Source: Lysobacterales bacterium
Lineage (GTDB): Bacteria; Pseudomonadota; Gammaproteobacteria; Xanthomonadales; Ahniellaceae
Length of the DNA: 64,000 bases
Assembly (NCBI GenBank): GCA_016182785.1
Contig: JACPFU010000022.1
Location: forward strand, 1-64,000
Direction of reading: 5' to 3'
In this document: positions 26,167 through 33,304 of the stretch, one piece after another
How the letters are laid out: each line of letters begins with the position of its first letter
Position numbering within the stretch: the stretch's first letter is position 1
The notes under the pieces: generated by a model
The model's input: the letters and a program-made list of their open reading frames with translations, nothing else
What the model was told of the DNA's origin: nothing
Database searches by the model: none
Translations under genes and position numbers: made by a program

Positions 26167-27010
26167 AGCGCACGCTGGCGTAGTAGGCGCGGAATCGCGG
26201 CGAGTAAAACCCGGCGTCCACCGTGATCGCCGGTTGCGCGCTGCGTGCGCTGCGGATCTCCTGCTCGGCCCGGGCACGATGCGCGGCAGCGTTCGCGGCT
26301 TCGATCTCGGACAAGGCATGGAACGAGGCCGCGCGCACCAGATGCAGGTGCGCAAGCGCCTTGCCCTGCACGCCGGAGACCGACCCGGCGACAACGCTGC
26401 GATAGCGCCCGGACAGCCAGCCGCGCAGTGCCGCGTCGAGCGCGGGCGGCGGCGCCGACGTCGCAACCGGCGCGGCGGCAGTCGTCGTCGCGGGGCCGGG
26501 CGTGGCGGTGGTCGGTGACTTGGGCGGGAGCGTGACCGGAGGCGTTGCGGCCGGCGGCGTGCTGCTCGTGGTCGCAGGCGGGACAGTGGTGCTCGATGCG
26601 GTCGTCGCCGGCGGCTTCGGCGGCGCCGTCGCGGCCAGCTTGCGGTCGCAGTCGCTGCGCGCGGCATCGGCGACGCCCTTGAACTCGGGCAATTGCGCGA
26701 TCACCGTCGCGGCCGCACCATCGCCGAACCAGCGCAGCGCGGTGGCGCAATCGTTCTGCCGATAGGCGGCGAGGCCGAGGTAGTACTGCGGCACGTACGG
26801 CGCGAATCGCTGCCCGTACAGCTTGACCCGCGCCTTCGGATTCGGGTTGCCGGCCAGCGCCTCCTGCATGGCGCTCTCGACTGCGCTCCAGTCCTGCTTC
26901 TCGGCCGCCTCCTGGCCGCGCGCATACGCCTTGTAATCGGCCAGCGCCATCGCCGGGATCAACAGGGCGCCGCCGATCAGGGCGGCCAGGATTCGCTCAG
27001 AGGCCGGCAC
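26165..27010 (-). CDS. Exported protein with TPR-like and Pro/Thr-rich regions, kinase companion
   Basis: The 281-residue product starts at a GTG that lies inside the last codons of the kinase gene (14-base overlap), giving a clean signal peptide (about 1-24, ILAALIGGALLIPAMALA). Residues 25-105 look like TPR-type helices (YKAYARGQEAAEKQDWSAVE; YYLGLAAYRQNDCATALRWF). A Pro/Thr/Ala-rich linker follows (about 115-185), then a second helical part. No family is recognised. The overlap with a Ser/Thr kinase gene suggests translational coupling and a shared pathway. The Thr-rich linker lies outside the cytoplasm, so it is unlikely to be the kinase's substrate. Confidence 0.7.
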   Translation of the reverse strand: MPASERILAALIGGALLIPAMALADYKAYARGQEAAEKQDWSAVESAMQEALAGNPNPKARVKLYGQRFAPYVPQYYLGLAAYRQNDCATALRWFGDGAAATVIAQLPEFKGVADAARSDCDRKLAATAPPKPPATTASSTTVPPATTSSTPPAATPPVTLPPKSPTTATPGPATTTAAAPVATSAPPPALDAALRGWLSGRYRSVVAGSVSGVQGKALAHLHLVRAASFHALSEIEAANAAAHRARAEQEIRSARSAQPAITVDAGFYSPRFRAYYASVR

Positions 27011-30000
27011 GACGCAGGTACTCCTGTTCGTCCAAGGCGGCGAAGGCCGCCGAACCGGTGGTTTCGCTCTTTGCCTTGACCGTCGCCTGGGCGTTGCTGC
27101 GCGCCCCGGACGGATGCCGGAAGCTGATGCGGTAGACGCCGGCGGGCACCTGCAGCCGCATCGGGGTGGCACGGTCGGCGGGCAGCTCGATCGCGACCTT
27201 GCGCTGCACGTCGGTCACCGACTCCACCTCGCCCCAGGGCAACGCCAGCAGCACCAGGTCACCGGCCGTGGCCGCGAGCCGCGCCCGGTTCTCGTCGGCC
27301 AGTCGCGTGCGCGCCGCCTGCACCGAGGTCGCGACCGCGGGCGCTTCGTCGGCGAACGAGCGGCGGTAGCGCTGCAGCAGCGCGTCGACCTGGTCGAGTG
27401 CGCCGGCATCGGTCGCCGATTCGGCCGCCTCGCGCAGCGCATCCAGCAGACGCTGGCGCGCGGTCTGCGCATCGACGTCACGCGCGTTGGCCTTGACCAG
27501 GGTGGCGGCGTCGGTCAACGCCGTCTCGAACGCCTTGACGTCGAGCGGCCGCTGCGCTGCCGCGGCCAGGATGTGGTCCAGCTTCTCGCGCCGCGCCTGC
27601 GCCGCCGCGTCCGCCGCCTGCTGGCGCTTCAGGTCCGCGACCAGCGCGTACACGTCGGCGTCCTCGGGGAAGCGCTGGCGCGCCTGGTTCGCGAGTTCGA
27701 GTGCGGCCGGGATGCGCTGCTCCTGCGCCAGCGCACGCGCCGCGTCGATGGCGGTGCGTGCGAGACCGTCGCGCATGCGCAGCGCCTCGGCGTTGCGCGG
27801 ATCGAGCTTGAGCAGTTCCGCCAGCGAGTCGGCGGCATTCTGTCCCGGCGGCGCGAAGATCCTGCGCTCGGCCAGCGCCTGTTGCGCCTGCCCCAGCAAC
27901 CCGGCCACGCGACGCTGCTCGGCGCTCAGGCGGCCCTCGACATCACGCTTGAATGCGGCCGCCTCGGTCGACGCCGGCTGCACGCGCAGCGCCAGCTCGA
28001 CGTGCGCGAGCGATGTCGATGCATCGCCCGCAGCCATCGCTGCGCGCGCGTCGGCAATCAGCGCCGCGGCCAGCGCAGCACTGCGCGATTCCGCCGCGGC
28101 CGCGTCGAGTTGCCGCAATGCCGCCAGCGACTCCAGCGCGTTGTCACCCGAGGGTTCGGCGTAGCGCCGCGCCCGCACTTGCAGGTCGAACTGGTTCTGC
28201 AGGCCCGCGACCTGGGCGCTGCGCTCGGCCGCGGTGCGTGCCGCGGCGATGTCGTCGCGCAGCTTGCGCCAGGCCGGATCATTGCCGAGCGTTGCGGCGT
28301 AGCCATCGAGCAGCGACTGCGCGCGCCCCAGATCGCCACCGGCGAGCGCGTCGCGGCTCGGCGCCAGCAATCTCGCCAGCAGACTCGCCTGCGCGGCCCC
28401 GACTGCGGGATCGGCCGGCGCCAGTTGCGCCGCTTGGCGCAGCAAGGCGTAGGCGCCGCCGCCGCCCAGATCGCGTCCCGCAGCCGCGGCTTCCGCGGCC
28501 TTCGCCAGCAGCTCGCGCGCCTGCGCCGCGCGCTCGCTGCCGGCGCGGGCATCGGCGATGGCGCTACGCAGGCTCGCGATCTCGGCGTCCTCGGGCGCCA
28601 GCGACTCGGCGAACCCGAGCGCCCCTTCGGCGTCGAGGTACTCGCCGCGCGCGCTGCGCGCCTTGGCCTCCGCCTTCAGCGCGGCGAGCAGCGCCTGTGC
28701 CCGGCGGCGCGTGCCGGAATAGTCCGGAGCGCGCTCCTGCACCACCTTGAGGGTGTCGAATGCATTGTCGGCACCGGCGGCGACGGTCAGCTTGCCGTCG
28801 CCGATATGGCGATCGACGATCACCAGGCGCGCGTCGATCTCGCCGCGGATGCGCGGATCGATCTCGTCACCGGGCGCGCGCAGCACCCACCACGCCGCCA
28901 CCGCAACCAGCAGCACGACCACCGCGCCGATGCCGAGCCAGAGGCCGCCGCGACGCGGTGCCGCCGCCGCTGGCATTGCCGGATGCAAGGTCGGATTCGA
29001 GATGCGCGTCGCTGCCCCGGCTTCGGCAGCGCCTCGCGCCACCTGGGTCGGCAACGCCCGCGCAGGCGCCGGCAGCTGCCGCTTCGACGGCACGCCCTGC
29101 TGCACCGGATCGAGCGCGGTCGAGGAACTCACCGAGAAGCCGAGCGCACGCAGCTGCTCGGAGGAACTCTGGTTCGGATCCGCCTGCAGCCGCTCCCACA
29201 GACGGTCGTTGTTGACCACGACCGACTTCAGCGCCTTGGTGAATTCCTTCAGGTTGGCGAAGCGTTCGTCGCGGCTCTTCGCCAGCATGCGATCGAGCAC
29301 CACCTGGAACTCGCCGAACTGCGGCGGCAGCGGCGGCAGCGGGCTGGTCAGGTGCGCCATCAGCACCGCGATTGGCGTCTCGCCCTGGAACGGCGCGTGT
29401 CCGGTGAGCAGCTCGTAGAACATCACGCCGAGGCTGTACAGGTCGGAACGACCGTCGACATCGAGGCCGTTGATCTGTTCCGGGCTCATGTAGGTCGGAG
29501 TGCCGACCAGCATGCCGGTCTGCGTCAGGCGCGTCTGCGAGGCATCCTGCTGCTTGGCGATGCCGAAGTCGGTCAGCACCGGCGTCAGCTCGTCGCGGAA
29601 CATGATGTTCGCCGGCTTCAGGTCGCGGTGGATCACGCCGTGGTCGTGCGCGAACTGCAGCGCCCCGGCAATCTGCACCACGATCGCCACCGCTTCGGCG
29701 AGCGACAGGCCGCTGCGCATCTTCTCGTGCAGGGTGCCGCCTTCCAGGTACTCCATCGAGATGTAGGTGGCGACGTCGCTCTTGACGATGTCGTACACGG
29801 CGACGATGTTCCGGTGCGGCAGCTTGGCCAGGGTGCGGCCTTCGACCAGGAAGCGGCGCTCGAACTTCTCGGCGTCGTCGATGTTGCGCCGCATGACCTT
29901 GATCGCGACCTTGCGCTCGAGCGAGCTCTGGATCGCCAGGTACACGGTCGCCATGCCACCCACGCCGAGTTCACGGATCAGCTCGAAGCCGGGAATGTTG

Positions 30001-30020
30001 AAGGCGGGCGTGGCGCTCAT
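26997..30020 (-). CDS. Membrane-anchored Ser/Thr protein kinase (Hanks type)
   Basis: The 1007-residue product has an N-terminal kinase domain with all catalytic elements: glycine loop GVGGMATV (19-26), Lys41 (VAIKVM), a helix-C Glu about 60, HRDLKPAN (131-138), DFG (151-153) and SPE (179-181). A linker and one membrane helix (about 358-380) follow, then about 620 residues of Ala/Arg/Leu-rich helices with periodic 'ALxLDPxNxEA' units (TPR-like). These would lie in the periplasm and may sense a ligand or protein. A short C-terminal beta-rich piece (about 925-1000) resembles PEGA-like domains. The gene overlaps the exported-protein gene downstream. A promoter with TTGGCG-N16-TATGAT lies 27-54 bases upstream of the start codon. 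The substrates are unknown. Confidence 0.9.
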   Translation of the reverse strand: MSATPAFNIPGFELIRELGVGGMATVYLAIQSSLERKVAIKVMRRNIDDAEKFERRFLVEGRTLAKLPHRNIVAVYDIVKSDVATYISMEYLEGGTLHEKMRSGLSLAEAVAIVVQIAGALQFAHDHGVIHRDLKPANIMFRDELTPVLTDFGIAKQQDASQTRLTQTGMLVGTPTYMSPEQINGLDVDGRSDLYSLGVMFYELLTGHAPFQGETPIAVLMAHLTSPLPPLPPQFGEFQVVLDRMLAKSRDERFANLKEFTKALKSVVVNNDRLWERLQADPNQSSSEQLRALGFSVSSSTALDPVQQGVPSKRQLPAPARALPTQVARGAAEAGAATRISNPTLHPAMPAAAAPRRGGLWLGIGAVVVLLVAVAAWWVLRAPGDEIDPRIRGEIDARLVIVDRHIGDGKLTVAAGADNAFDTLKVVQERAPDYSGTRRRAQALLAALKAEAKARSARGEYLDAEGALGFAESLAPEDAEIASLRSAIADARAGSERAAQARELLAKAAEAAAAGRDLGGGGAYALLRQAAQLAPADPAVGAAQASLLARLLAPSRDALAGGDLGRAQSLLDGYAATLGNDPAWRKLRDDIAAARTAAERSAQVAGLQNQFDLQVRARRYAEPSGDNALESLAALRQLDAAAAESRSAALAAALIADARAAMAAGDASTSLAHVELALRVQPASTEAAAFKRDVEGRLSAEQRRVAGLLGQAQQALAERRIFAPPGQNAADSLAELLKLDPRNAEALRMRDGLARTAIDAARALAQEQRIPAALELANQARQRFPEDADVYALVADLKRQQAADAAAQARREKLDHILAAAAQRPLDVKAFETALTDAATLVKANARDVDAQTARQRLLDALREAAESATDAGALDQVDALLQRYRRSFADEAPAVATSVQAARTRLADENRARLAATAGDLVLLALPWGEVESVTDVQRKVAIELPADRATPMRLQVPAGVYRISFRHPSGARSNAQATVKAKSETTGSAAFAALDEQEYLRRAGL

Positions 30021-30997: not shown

Positions 30998-31030
30998 AAA
31001 ACGCCGCGGCTGGTCCGCGGCGTTTTTTTT
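30998..31030 (+). terminator. Rho-independent terminator of the TorF gene
   Basis: AACGCCGCGG (31000-31009) pairs with CCGCGGCGTT (31015-31024), followed by an unbroken T-run to 31030. It cleanly separates the porin gene from the sigma-factor operon. Confidence 0.9.
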
Positions 31031-31075
31031 CGCCCGGCTTGCGACCCTTTCCGGCCCCGGCGCATCCTAGGTTCC

Positions 31076-31627
31076 GTGAGCAGCCATTTCGCCATCGACG
31101 TACCGGCCAGCCTGATCGAACGCGGCGCGCGCGGCGACATGCGCGCGTTCGAGCAGATCTACCGCCTGTTCGAGCGACCGGTGTACACGCTGGCGTTGCG
31201 GCTGCTCGGCGACGCCGACGAGGCCGAGGAGATCCTGCACGACGCCATGCTGCAGCTGTTTCGCAAGCTCGGCCAGTTCCGCGGCGACGCGCCGTTCTGG
31301 GGCTGGCTGCGCCAGATCGCGGTGAACGAGGCGCTGATGCGCCTGCGTCGGCGCGGCGTGGTCGAAACCGTCGACGAGATGCCCGAACCGGCCGACGACG
31401 CGGCCGCCCCGCCGGAGCACCAGCGCGACCTGGAACGCGCGCTCGCCAGGCTGCCGGAGATCACCCGCAGCGTGGTCTGGCTGTACCACGTGGAAGGCTA
31501 TTCGCACGAGGAGATCGCGACCAGTTTCGGCAAGTCGGTGAGCTTCTCGAAATCGCAACTCGCGCGCGGCACGCGCCGGCTGCGCGACTACTACGACGCG
31601 CCACAGGCGCAGGTGGCTTATGCCTGA
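31076..31627 (+). CDS. ECF-type RNA polymerase sigma factor
   Basis: The 183-residue sigma-70-family factor has region 2 (about 20-90: DMRAFEQIYRLFERPVYTLALRLLGDADEAEEILHDAMLQL, then FRGDAPFWGWLRQIAVNEAL) and region 4 (about 125-175: ALARLPEITRSVVWLYHVEGYSHEEIATSFGKSVSFSKSQLARG), with an acidic linker between. It lacks regions 1 and 3, as in ECF factors of the RpoE type. It starts at GTG, with little ribosome-site signal. The putative anti-sigma gene starts eight bases before its end, so the two are translationally linked, the usual layout for a sigma factor and its inhibitor. Confidence 0.92.
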   Translation: MSSHFAIDVPASLIERGARGDMRAFEQIYRLFERPVYTLALRLLGDADEAEEILHDAMLQLFRKLGQFRGDAPFWGWLRQIAVNEALMRLRRRGVVETVDEMPEPADDAAAPPEHQRDLERALARLPEITRSVVWLYHVEGYSHEEIATSFGKSVSFSKSQLARGTRRLRDYYDAPQAQVAYA

Positions 31628-32192
31628 TGATCGTTTCGTCTCCGACCCCGGCCGCGATGACATCGTGCTCGCGGCAGCCCTGCGCGCACTGCCGCTGCAA
31701 GCGCCGCGCGCGGGTGGCTTCGCCGCGCTGAGCCGCGAGTTGGCACTGGCGACACCGCGAGCGGAGCGCTCTGCCGGCGCCCGCCGCAGTGCCACTGCAT
31801 GGCTGGCATTGGCCGCGACCGTGTTCGCCGCGATCGTCGGCGTGCGCGCGCTGCGTCCGGAACCCGCGGTCACCGTGCGCGAAGCCAACGCCAGCACGCG
31901 GGAACTGATCGAACAATCACAGCAGCTCGACGCCATCCTGGCCGCACTCGATGCGCGCAGCGTGCCAATCGATGCCGCCAGCGCGATGGCAAGCGTCGAG
32001 CTCGAAAACCTGATCGGACTGACCGATCTGCAGTTGAACGCGACCAGCCGCGACGACGAGGCCGAAGCCTTGTGGTCGCGCCGCGTGGAACTGATGACCC
32101 GACTCGCGGCGACGCGCTCCAGCGCACGCTTCGACGCCCTCTCCGACAACGGTGGCGCGTACCTGCAGGACGCGAACTACCGCATCGACTGA
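31620..32192 (+). CDS. Single-pass membrane protein, putative anti-sigma factor
   Basis: The 190-residue product has a cytoplasmic N-terminal part of about 58 residues, one membrane helix (about 59-79: TAWLALAATVFAAIVGVRAL) and an outer part of about 110 residues with helical character (REANASTRELIEQSQQLDAILAAL). Topology, size and overlap with the sigma gene fit an anti-sigma factor that holds the ECF factor at the membrane. The zinc-binding HxxxCxxC motif of many anti-sigma factors is absent, and I see no match to RseA. The function is inferred mainly from gene order. AGGTGG lies upstream of the ATG. Confidence 0.65.
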   Translation: MPDDRFVSDPGRDDIVLAAALRALPLQAPRAGGFAALSRELALATPRAERSAGARRSATAWLALAATVFAAIVGVRALRPEPAVTVREANASTRELIEQSQQLDAILAALDARSVPIDAASAMASVELENLIGLTDLQLNATSRDDEAEALWSRRVELMTRLAATRSSARFDALSDNGGAYLQDANYRID

Positions 32193-32215
32193 CCGCAACC
32201 CGCAAGGAGAATCCA

Positions 32216-33304
32216 ATGAAGATCAAACCCACACTGCTCGCCGCCGCGCTGATGATCGCGTGCGCCGGAGCCTTCGGTGCTGAACCCAACGAGGCCGAAC
32301 GCGCGAATGCACGCAAGGAACTCGAAGCCGCGCGCAGCGAACTGCGCGAACTGACGCGACGCATCGCCGACCTGTCGATGCAGCTCGGCGACCATGGCCC
32401 GCGCGCCTTCGCCTTCGAGTTCGCCGGCGAACCGCGCCGCGCCCTGATCGGCGTGGTGCTGGAGCCGGATGCAAATGGCGCGCGCATCGCCGCGGTCACC
32501 CCCGGCAGTCCGGCGGCGAAAGCCGGTCTGAAGCCAGGTGATCTGATTGTCGCGATCAACGGCAAGCCCACCGGCAAGAGCCGCGCCGCGGTAGACGCGG
32601 TGCGCGAAACCATCGGCGCGCTCGAAGCCGGCACCGAAGTGACGGTGCGCTACCAGCGCGAGGGCAAGACCGTGGACGCGAAGATGGTCGCCGAGCGACG
32701 CGAACCCGGCGACTGGCTCGGCATGCTCGACCTGCCGCCGGGCCACGCCCCGCACGCGCCCATGCACGGCGATCCGGAGCGCATCGAGCGCGACATCCAG
32801 ATCATCATGAAGGATGGCGAGAAGATCGTGCGCGAGATGCATCAGGGCGGCCACGGCCCGATGCGCGAGCACCTGCGCTTTCTCGCCGGCGGACTGGATC
32901 TGAACCTGACCAGCCTCAATGCCGAGCTCGGCAAGTACTTCGGCGCCAGTGCCGGCGTGCTGGTACTGGAGAACGAAGGCGACAAGCTGCCGCAGCTGAA
33001 GGCCGGCGACGTGATCCAGGTGATCGACGGCCAGCCCGCGGACAGCGTGCCCGGTGCGATGCGCCTGCTGACCGCGAAGGAGCCCGGGCAGATGCTGAAC
33101 GTGGAAGTGCTGCGCGAGCGCAAGAAGCTGGTGTTGGCGATCCCGGCACCCGAGCGCGACGACCTGTTCTTCCGCATGCATGCACCGCCCGCTCCGCCGG
33201 CACCACCCGCTCCTCCGGCGGCACCGACGGCACCGGGAGCGCCCACGGCGCCGCCCGCCCCGCCGGCACCACCGGTGGCTCCGGTGGCGATGCTCGAAGC
33301 CTGA
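32216..33304 (+). CDS. Exported double-PDZ protein with proline-rich tail
   Basis: The 362-residue product has a signal peptide (about 1-22), a short coiled coil (ERANARKELEAARSELREL), a first PDZ domain (about 78-160: GSPAAKAGLKPGDLIVAING), a charged spacer, a second PDZ-like domain (about 240-310: LPQLKAGDVIQVIDGQPADS) and a Pro/Ala-rich tail (about 322-362, APPAPP repeats). There is no trypsin or other protease domain, so unlike DegS/DegP it can only bind C-termini or unfolded segments. It has AAGGAG as ribosome site and follows the putative anti-sigma gene by 23 bases. A role in sensing envelope proteins for the sigma system is inferred. Confidence 0.82.
   Translation: MKIKPTLLAAALMIACAGAFGAEPNEAERANARKELEAARSELRELTRRIADLSMQLGDHGPRAFAFEFAGEPRRALIGVVLEPDANGARIAAVTPGSPAAKAGLKPGDLIVAINGKPTGKSRAAVDAVRETIGALEAGTEVTVRYQREGKTVDAKMVAERREPGDWLGMLDLPPGHAPHAPMHGDPERIERDIQIIMKDGEKIVREMHQGGHGPMREHLRFLAGGLDLNLTSLNAELGKYFGASAGVLVLENEGDKLPQLKAGDVIQVIDGQPADSVPGAMRLLTAKEPGQMLNVEVLRERKKLVLAIPAPERDDLFFRMHAPPAPPAPPAPPAAPTAPGAPTAPPAPPAPPVAPVAMLEA

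Follow-up and report, generated by a model that had tools for sequence, protein, structure and literature searches.

To our knowledge, the ECF envelope-stress pathways described so far use a protease's PDZ domain to read protein C-termini. The locus studied here, which lies in a window of 64,000 nucleotides (the whole stretch of DNA that was analysed), raises the question of how an ECF sigma factor could be controlled when the PDZ protein encoded next to it carries no protease domain. A sequence-only reading of this DNA had proposed that a sigma factor, a membrane anti-sigma factor without a zinc site and a double-PDZ protein are encoded in one operon and constitute a self-contained system that signals by binding alone.

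We verified the three genes by ORF and Pfam analysis; they and all further features of the operon given below lie on the + strand. The first gene (31076-31627, GTG start) encodes a sigma factor of 183 aa, identified with Pfam and NCBIfam. The second (31620-32192) encodes a membrane anti-sigma factor of 190 aa, assigned from its ORF, Pfam, AlphaFold2 and NCBIfam searches on its orthologs, with an inferred topology, and the third (32216-33304) a secreted double-PDZ protein of 362 aa, characterized with Pfam, AlphaFold2 and Foldseek. The anti-sigma ORF overlaps the sigma ORF by 8 bases, and the PDZ ORF begins 23 bases past the anti-sigma stop. Together with the Pfam assignments and a gene order kept in 119 of 134 loci, this arrangement bears out the proposal of a single operon. 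No same-strand fourth gene was conserved among the ORF clusters up- and downstream across loci; the flanking clusters that are shared were mostly on the opposite strand or in shadow frames, each of them limited to some lineages.

The sigma factor scored above the Pfam cut-offs for Sigma70_r2 (52.9 bits) and Sigma70_r4_2 (49.1 bits). It holds regions 2 and 4 only, as expected of an ECF sigma factor, a class of ∼180 aa. In NCBIfam, it reached 82.4 bits against the sigma70-ECF superfamily model (cut-off 42.9) and remained under every equivalog cut-off shown; in particular, it is no RpoE equivalog (TIGR02939, 72.7 bits versus a cut-off of 236.15). One of the numbered ECF groups may already include it, as the 2021 ECF classification lies outside the literature searched. 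The idea that the operon is the organism's sigmaE system was rejected, as a separate RseA/RseB/DegP locus exists at C33:138042-140954. A related sigma/anti-sigma pair of the same order, which has no PDZ neighbour in the 30 best-scoring of its 55 listed matches and gives matches in 53 of the 151 genomes of the order, served as a control. The region-4 signature SFSKSQ[LVI][AS]R was found in 91 of the 119 sigma orthologs versus none of the 30 best-scoring of 55 listed PDZ-less relatives.

The sequence-only reading had called for a search for the three-gene set in other Xanthomonadales. The set is present there and well beyond: the 119 loci with sigma, anti-sigma and PDZ genes in this order belong to Xanthomonadales, other Gammaproteobacteria, Gemmatimonadota and Acidobacteriota. 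Among the remaining 15 loci, 14 reach the end of a contig or locus, and in one (L171) sigma and PDZ share one stop-to-stop frame. The full set occurs in 27 of 29 Gemmatimonadota-titled loci and in 6 of 9 titled Acidobacteriota or Thermoanaerobaculaceae. The view of a self-contained set with a protease-free third protein is thus borne out, and far outside the lineage in which it was noticed. Ten loci were removed by hand before counting as belonging to the same genomes as others, and G008 contributes two contigs to the 134 loci. Three loci with a doubtful frame (L079, L089 and L093) were excluded from the HMMs and from alignments A1 and A2; L103 was further left out of A2 (the PDZ alignment) and L075, L077 and L105 out of A1.

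With the anti-sigma factor as query, matches were obtained in 23 of 61 relatives, and a class-wide profile search of 369 genomes gave an anti-sigma match in 20. Some match to the PDZ protein was present in 150 of 151 genomes of the order, although the weaker matches were mostly to ordinary PDZ proteins. In 51 of 54 stretches fetched, a sigma ORF adjoins the PDZ ORF on the same strand; the exceptions are L083 and L108, which lack the sigma gene at a contig end, and L107, which holds the start of the PDZ gene only. Beyond the order, sigma and PDZ genes also adjoin each other at nine loci (L119-L127). When named genomes were scanned with 12 of the 46 rows of the PDZ alignment, a subset that biases the scan to PDZ proteins with LGxYFG in PDZ2, 80 loci were recovered, among them Rudaea, Dokdonella, Gemmatimonadota and Acidobacteriota. 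In some genera of the order, most genomes lack the trio (e.g. g18, as judged from weak PDZ matches only).

The anti-sigma factor matches no Pfam family. In the AlphaFold2 model, two short N-terminal helices (10-22 and 33-44) are followed by a hydrophobic helix (60-77), a confident three-helix bundle (91-112, 119-141 and 145-177; pLDDT mostly 89-98 over the block) and a flexible tail. The bundle is predicted to be periplasmic and the two short helices cytoplasmic. Near-invariant bundle residues across the orthologs are E104, D136, L139, W152 and R155. The NCBIfam model 'antisigma' (NF052375) was matched by 11 of 44 orthologs (best 5.4e-05) and PRK13920 'putative anti-sigmaE protein' by 3 of 44; RseA_N was found neither in the window protein, which is without any Pfam match, nor in any of the 44 orthologs. 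Foldseek gave no fold relative at E <= 0.001, and the VIA-align Z values were no higher than helical bundles reach on their own. We claim no fold relation; the match of the periplasmic bundle to NccX (Z 7.0) is likewise of a size to be expected from any helical bundle.

The description of the anti-sigma factor as zinc-less is correct for the window protein, which has neither Cys nor His and lacks the class I zinc-binding (ZASD) motif HxxxCxxC. The motif is present in 40 of 119 relatives, namely all 27 from Gemmatimonadota, all 6 from Acidobacteriota, L177 and six other loci, so that 33 of 33 Gemmatimonadota/Acidobacteriota triads keep it and its absence looks derived. In the zinc-bearing relatives it precedes a shared LP-x3-P-x3-W segment, and the membrane helix and periplasmic bundle are likewise common to both; the window protein and its Xanthomonadales orthologs begin later. 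Pfam zf-HC2 fell below its cut-off in two of the four zinc-bearing relatives examined. The two helices preceding the membrane helix in the model of the anti-sigma factor alone might correspond to the sigma-wrapping two-helix domain of class II (CnrY-like) anti-sigma factors. The zinc-bearing relatives argue for descent from class I, with the zinc part likely lost in the Xanthomonadales branch.

The third protein begins with a signal peptide (by eye), followed by a helix, two PDZ domains and a Pro/Ala-rich end. Pfam assigned PDZ_2 to two stretches (84.6 bits), and the AlphaFold2 model contains two PDZ domains. As the sequence-only reading had stated, there is no protease domain: Pfam found none, and the GNSGG motif was absent from all 119 PDZ ORFs. 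The degP model gave 65 bits against a cut-off of 416.2, with only the PDZ part matched, and Foldseek groups the protein with DegQ, DegP and DegS, including the DegS-YQF peptide complex. PDZ1 comprises residues 77-156 (32444-32683; PF13180 stretch), with a Phi-G-Phi signature at residues 78-80, which we take from DegS to be the carboxylate-binding loop. This signature is kept in 119 of 119 proteins as counted from the alignment column, a stricter hand-written pattern matching only 27. PDZ2 (residues 229-310, 32900-33145, delimited from the AlphaFold2 model) bears the signature LG-x-YFG-x3-GVLVL, and its YF regular expression was recovered in 115 of 119. In one gammaproteobacterial genus (L125-L127), the third gene encodes a short single-PDZ protein that keeps the PDZ1 loop, which points, as a weak argument, to PDZ1 as the reader of C-termini. 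A scan for PDZ positions varying with the type of anti-sigma tail returned many positions at similar z and no prominent groove position, as shared ancestry would produce. The Pro/Ala-rich end (33182-33286, defined by composition) is lineage specific. A Pro-rich end (>=25% P in the last 70 aa) was found in only 43 of 119 PDZ ORFs, so the suggestion that such a tail reaches through the peptidoglycan is not supported as a general feature, and the tail was dropped as an essential part of the system.

What the PDZ protein might bind is suggested by the other end of the anti-sigma factor. At 85 of 119 loci the anti-sigma factor ends in L, I, V, F, M, Y or W; at 24 more, one of these residues precedes a terminal N, D or Q. 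Counting both types, 109 of 119 tails resemble PDZ ligands, as against 0.239 of 866 background C-termini from long ORFs of the same DNA; this background is a mechanical ORF set with some spurious members, and because related species share ancestry in their tails, a binomial value overstates the difference. All 6 Acidobacteriota tails fit, as do 26 of the 27 from Gemmatimonadota and 76 of the 85 in the rest of the set (Proteobacteria). Against a tail-ligand model, 10 of the 119 tails fall outside both types, some of these ending in W-x-N, SQRR, YQP or VWR, and 31 tails end in N, D or Q, an unusual end for a PDZ ligand.

Gemmatimonadota have YVGL or near variants, one Xanthomonadales family has RMASL, and the genus of the window has YRID (in the window, NYRID at 32175-32189). 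The three species of this genus share all four C-terminal residues, although their anti-sigma factors as a whole are 61-64% identical; all 119 proteins differ from each other over their last 120 residues. The linker from bundle to tail ranges from 16 to 39 residues (109 anti-sigma factors measured). Among 833 pairs with equal linker length, which are non-independent, the last four residues were 0.54 identical versus 0.37 for the preceding linker, with some length classes reversed (e.g. class 26, tail 0.03 and linker 0.25). In the PDZ-less control family, none of the 30 best-scoring of 55 listed matches has such a tail, their last residues being G (19), S (6), A (3), P (1) and T (1). One PDZ-less pair occurs in the window's own genome (L294, G000:C30:104957-105433), where the anti-sigma factor ends in KALSA. 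The tail, found in 109 of 119 cases with the PDZ gene and in 0 of these 30 without it, and the PDZ gene therefore go together. These comparisons make the anti-sigma factor's own C-terminus the best-supported candidate ligand, C-termini of outer-membrane proteins being at most competitors, and we consider it likely that the PDZ protein binds this tail.

We then considered how the operon itself may be transcribed. A motif of the type TGCGAC-N16-GCATC lies upstream of the sigma gene in 107 of 118 loci, with a spacing of exactly 16 in 104, whereas block-shuffled controls gave a mean of 3.24 and a maximum of 9 of 118. Position weights show a T-run after the first box. The predicted ECF promoter of the window operon, recognized from this conserved motif, is TGCGACC-CTTT-N11-GCATCCT (31040-31068). 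Its -10 element GCATC ends 9 bases ahead of the GTG start, and in 98 of the 107 loci the second box ends at most 15 bases before the first in-frame start codon. Given this proximity and the general spacing between -10 and +1, by which transcription starts are placed, the transcript probably has little or no leader. From the position and conservation of the promoter, the sigma factor very probably drives its own operon. In the genome of the window, the operon is the only perfect match to the long promoter pattern. Across nine genomes, the operon's own site was recovered in all nine and only five other sites had at most one mismatch; with up to two mismatches there were 36 sites versus 19 for the reversed pattern, that is about one further site per genome, and targets beyond the operon are therefore possible. 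By this measure the regulon would be small. Near-consensus sites were seen in front of or near genes for a MacB-like ABC transporter, a response regulator and two secreted proteins (names by eye), and candidate further targets in other genomes are L237 (G003:C9:185001), L250 (G149:C2:3909328), L243 and L246.

A mechanism can be proposed that would join these elements into a three-gene, self-regulating envelope-stress module; taken as a whole, we regard it as evenly poised between right and wrong. The anti-sigma factor would span the inner membrane, hold the ECF sigma factor with its short cytoplasmic part and present, through its periplasmic three-helix domain, a flexible tail whose C-terminus is hydrophobic. 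In the periplasm, the PDZ protein would bind this tail, most likely via PDZ1, and the complex would be kept off. Upon envelope misfolding, exposed C-termini would compete for the PDZ domains and free the tail, whereupon the anti-sigma factor would release the sigma factor or be degraded. The sigma factor would then transcribe mainly its own operon from the TGCGAC-N16-GCATC promoter, and the additional PDZ protein and anti-sigma factor would restore the off state, so that the PDZ protein would be sensor and main product at once. The steps are not equally secure. That tail binding corresponds to the off state rather than the on state is slightly favoured, and competition by the C-termini of misfolded proteins as the signal is conceivable, with the balance leaning somewhat against it.

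The part played by proteolysis bears directly on this mechanism. The sequence-only reading had envisaged signalling by binding alone, which may or may not hold: the window's genome encodes RseP (314 bits, C33:235939-237258) and HtrA/DegP-type proteases, two HtrA proteins scoring above the Do-family cut-off, and release of the sigma factor may be proteolytic. These enzymes would equally serve a variant in which an HtrA/DegS- or Prc-like site-1 protease reads hydrophobic C-termini and RseP follows, the PDZ protein being an RseB-like cap that hides the tail. Such a protease would be as well suited to a hydrophobic C-terminal tail as a PDZ protein, and DegS-type PDZ domains do read C-termini according to the passages of PMC8103513 covered here. 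However, no protease gene accompanies the operon, the separate RseA/RseB/DegP locus (G000:C33:138042-140954) indicates that those proteases have another client, and the absence of such tails from the best-scoring 30 of 55 PDZ-less matches ties the tail to the PDZ gene and not to general proteases. We judge this variant rather unlikely.

The same co-occurrence of tail and PDZ gene (109 of 119 versus 0 of 30) weighs against a reading in which the PDZ protein is an effector only, chaperone-like, while the three-helix domain of the anti-sigma factor senses the signal and the tail has some other partner. It would agree with predicted autoregulation, by which the PDZ protein is made when the sigma factor is active, and with the bundle being the best-conserved periplasmic part (pLDDT 89-98, with the near-invariant residues given above); it leaves the constraint on the tail unexplained, and we consider it improbable. 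We find it just as improbable that the sign is opposite, binding of the tail by the PDZ protein pulling on or unfolding the anti-sigma factor and so turning the system on. Sequence does not fix the sign, and an activator combined with autoregulation would make a positive-feedback switch. A constitutive activator encoded with its own anti-sigma factor would nonetheless need a further signal to stay off, and in the best-studied case the last-encoded regulator, RseB, is negative, as stated in the sections of PMC4598750 and PMC8103513 considered. Our preferred reading is that the PDZ protein reads the anti-sigma factor's own tail, with competing exposed C-termini as the most natural candidate signal and the operon itself as the main output; the reading of the tail has good indirect support, whereas the signal and the sign do not.

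Release of RseA by DegS and RseP, the CnrX-CnrY-CnrH system and the anti-sigma classes are described in the available parts of PMC4598750, PMC7406223 and PMC8103513. The trio shares with sigmaE-RseA-RseB of Escherichia coli, with its proteases DegS and RseP, an ECF sigma factor, a single-pass anti-sigma factor, a periplasmic third protein and the reading of C-termini by PDZ domains. In contrast, its PDZ protein has neither a protease nor an RseB domain, its anti-sigma factor is not of the RseA_N type and bears a PDZ-ligand-like tail, and the classical RseA/RseB/DegP pathway is present beside it, elsewhere in the same genome. Like CnrH-CnrY-CnrX, which responds to nickel and cobalt in Cupriavidus, it consists of three genes and has, by prediction, a short two-helix cytoplasmic anti-sigma part, with no sequence relation found between the systems; the periplasmic sensor CnrX is thought to act by conformational change and not by proteolysis (both points from excerpts of PMC4598750 and PMC7406223), whereas the third protein here is a PDZ protein and not a CnrX-like metal sensor. 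In AlgU-MucA of Pseudomonas aeruginosa, with AlgW and MucE, a PDZ domain likewise reads a short hydrophobic C-terminus, but there the PDZ domain is on the protease and the tail on the third protein (PMC8545111, in part), while here the tail is on the anti-sigma factor and the PDZ protein is protease-free. Unlike the window protein, the relatives from Gemmatimonadota and Acidobacteriota carry the HxxxCxxC of zinc-binding class I anti-sigma factors. In the portions covered, PMC7406223 has no mention of PDZ, and the PDZ passages of PMC4598750 and PMC8103513 concern DegS and RseP. In the open-licence literature searched, we found no description of an ECF operon that encodes a PDZ protein without a protease domain.

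Only tentatively do we extend the mechanism to a widespread homeostat, in which the PDZ ligand would be part of the anti-sigma factor itself and a PDZ protein without protease would be sensor, brake and main product, gauging the free periplasmic PDZ capacity in at least three phyla and with no dedicated protease. If true, this would be a different coupling of extra-membrane misfolding to transcription, spread over Proteobacteria, Gemmatimonadota and Acidobacteriota, and would give a function to a protein class annotated merely as 'PDZ domain-containing'. The trio is small, with three genes and one promoter, and could be rebuilt in a laboratory strain.

Some features of the surroundings of the operon were also noted. 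A large Ser/Thr protein kinase ORF of 1007 aa (by eye) lies on the - strand at 26997-30020 of the window, two genes from the sigma operon. Between them is a porin-like gene, the end of which lies just before the operon promoter; a GC-rich inverted repeat followed by a T-run at 31000-31031, by eye a terminator, separates the two. At many other loci (L060, L062, L143-L162 and others), the upstream neighbour of the sigma gene is on the opposite strand and has a start resembling an HlyD/MacA-like membrane-fusion protein (by eye); one such opposite-strand cluster comprises 16 loci.
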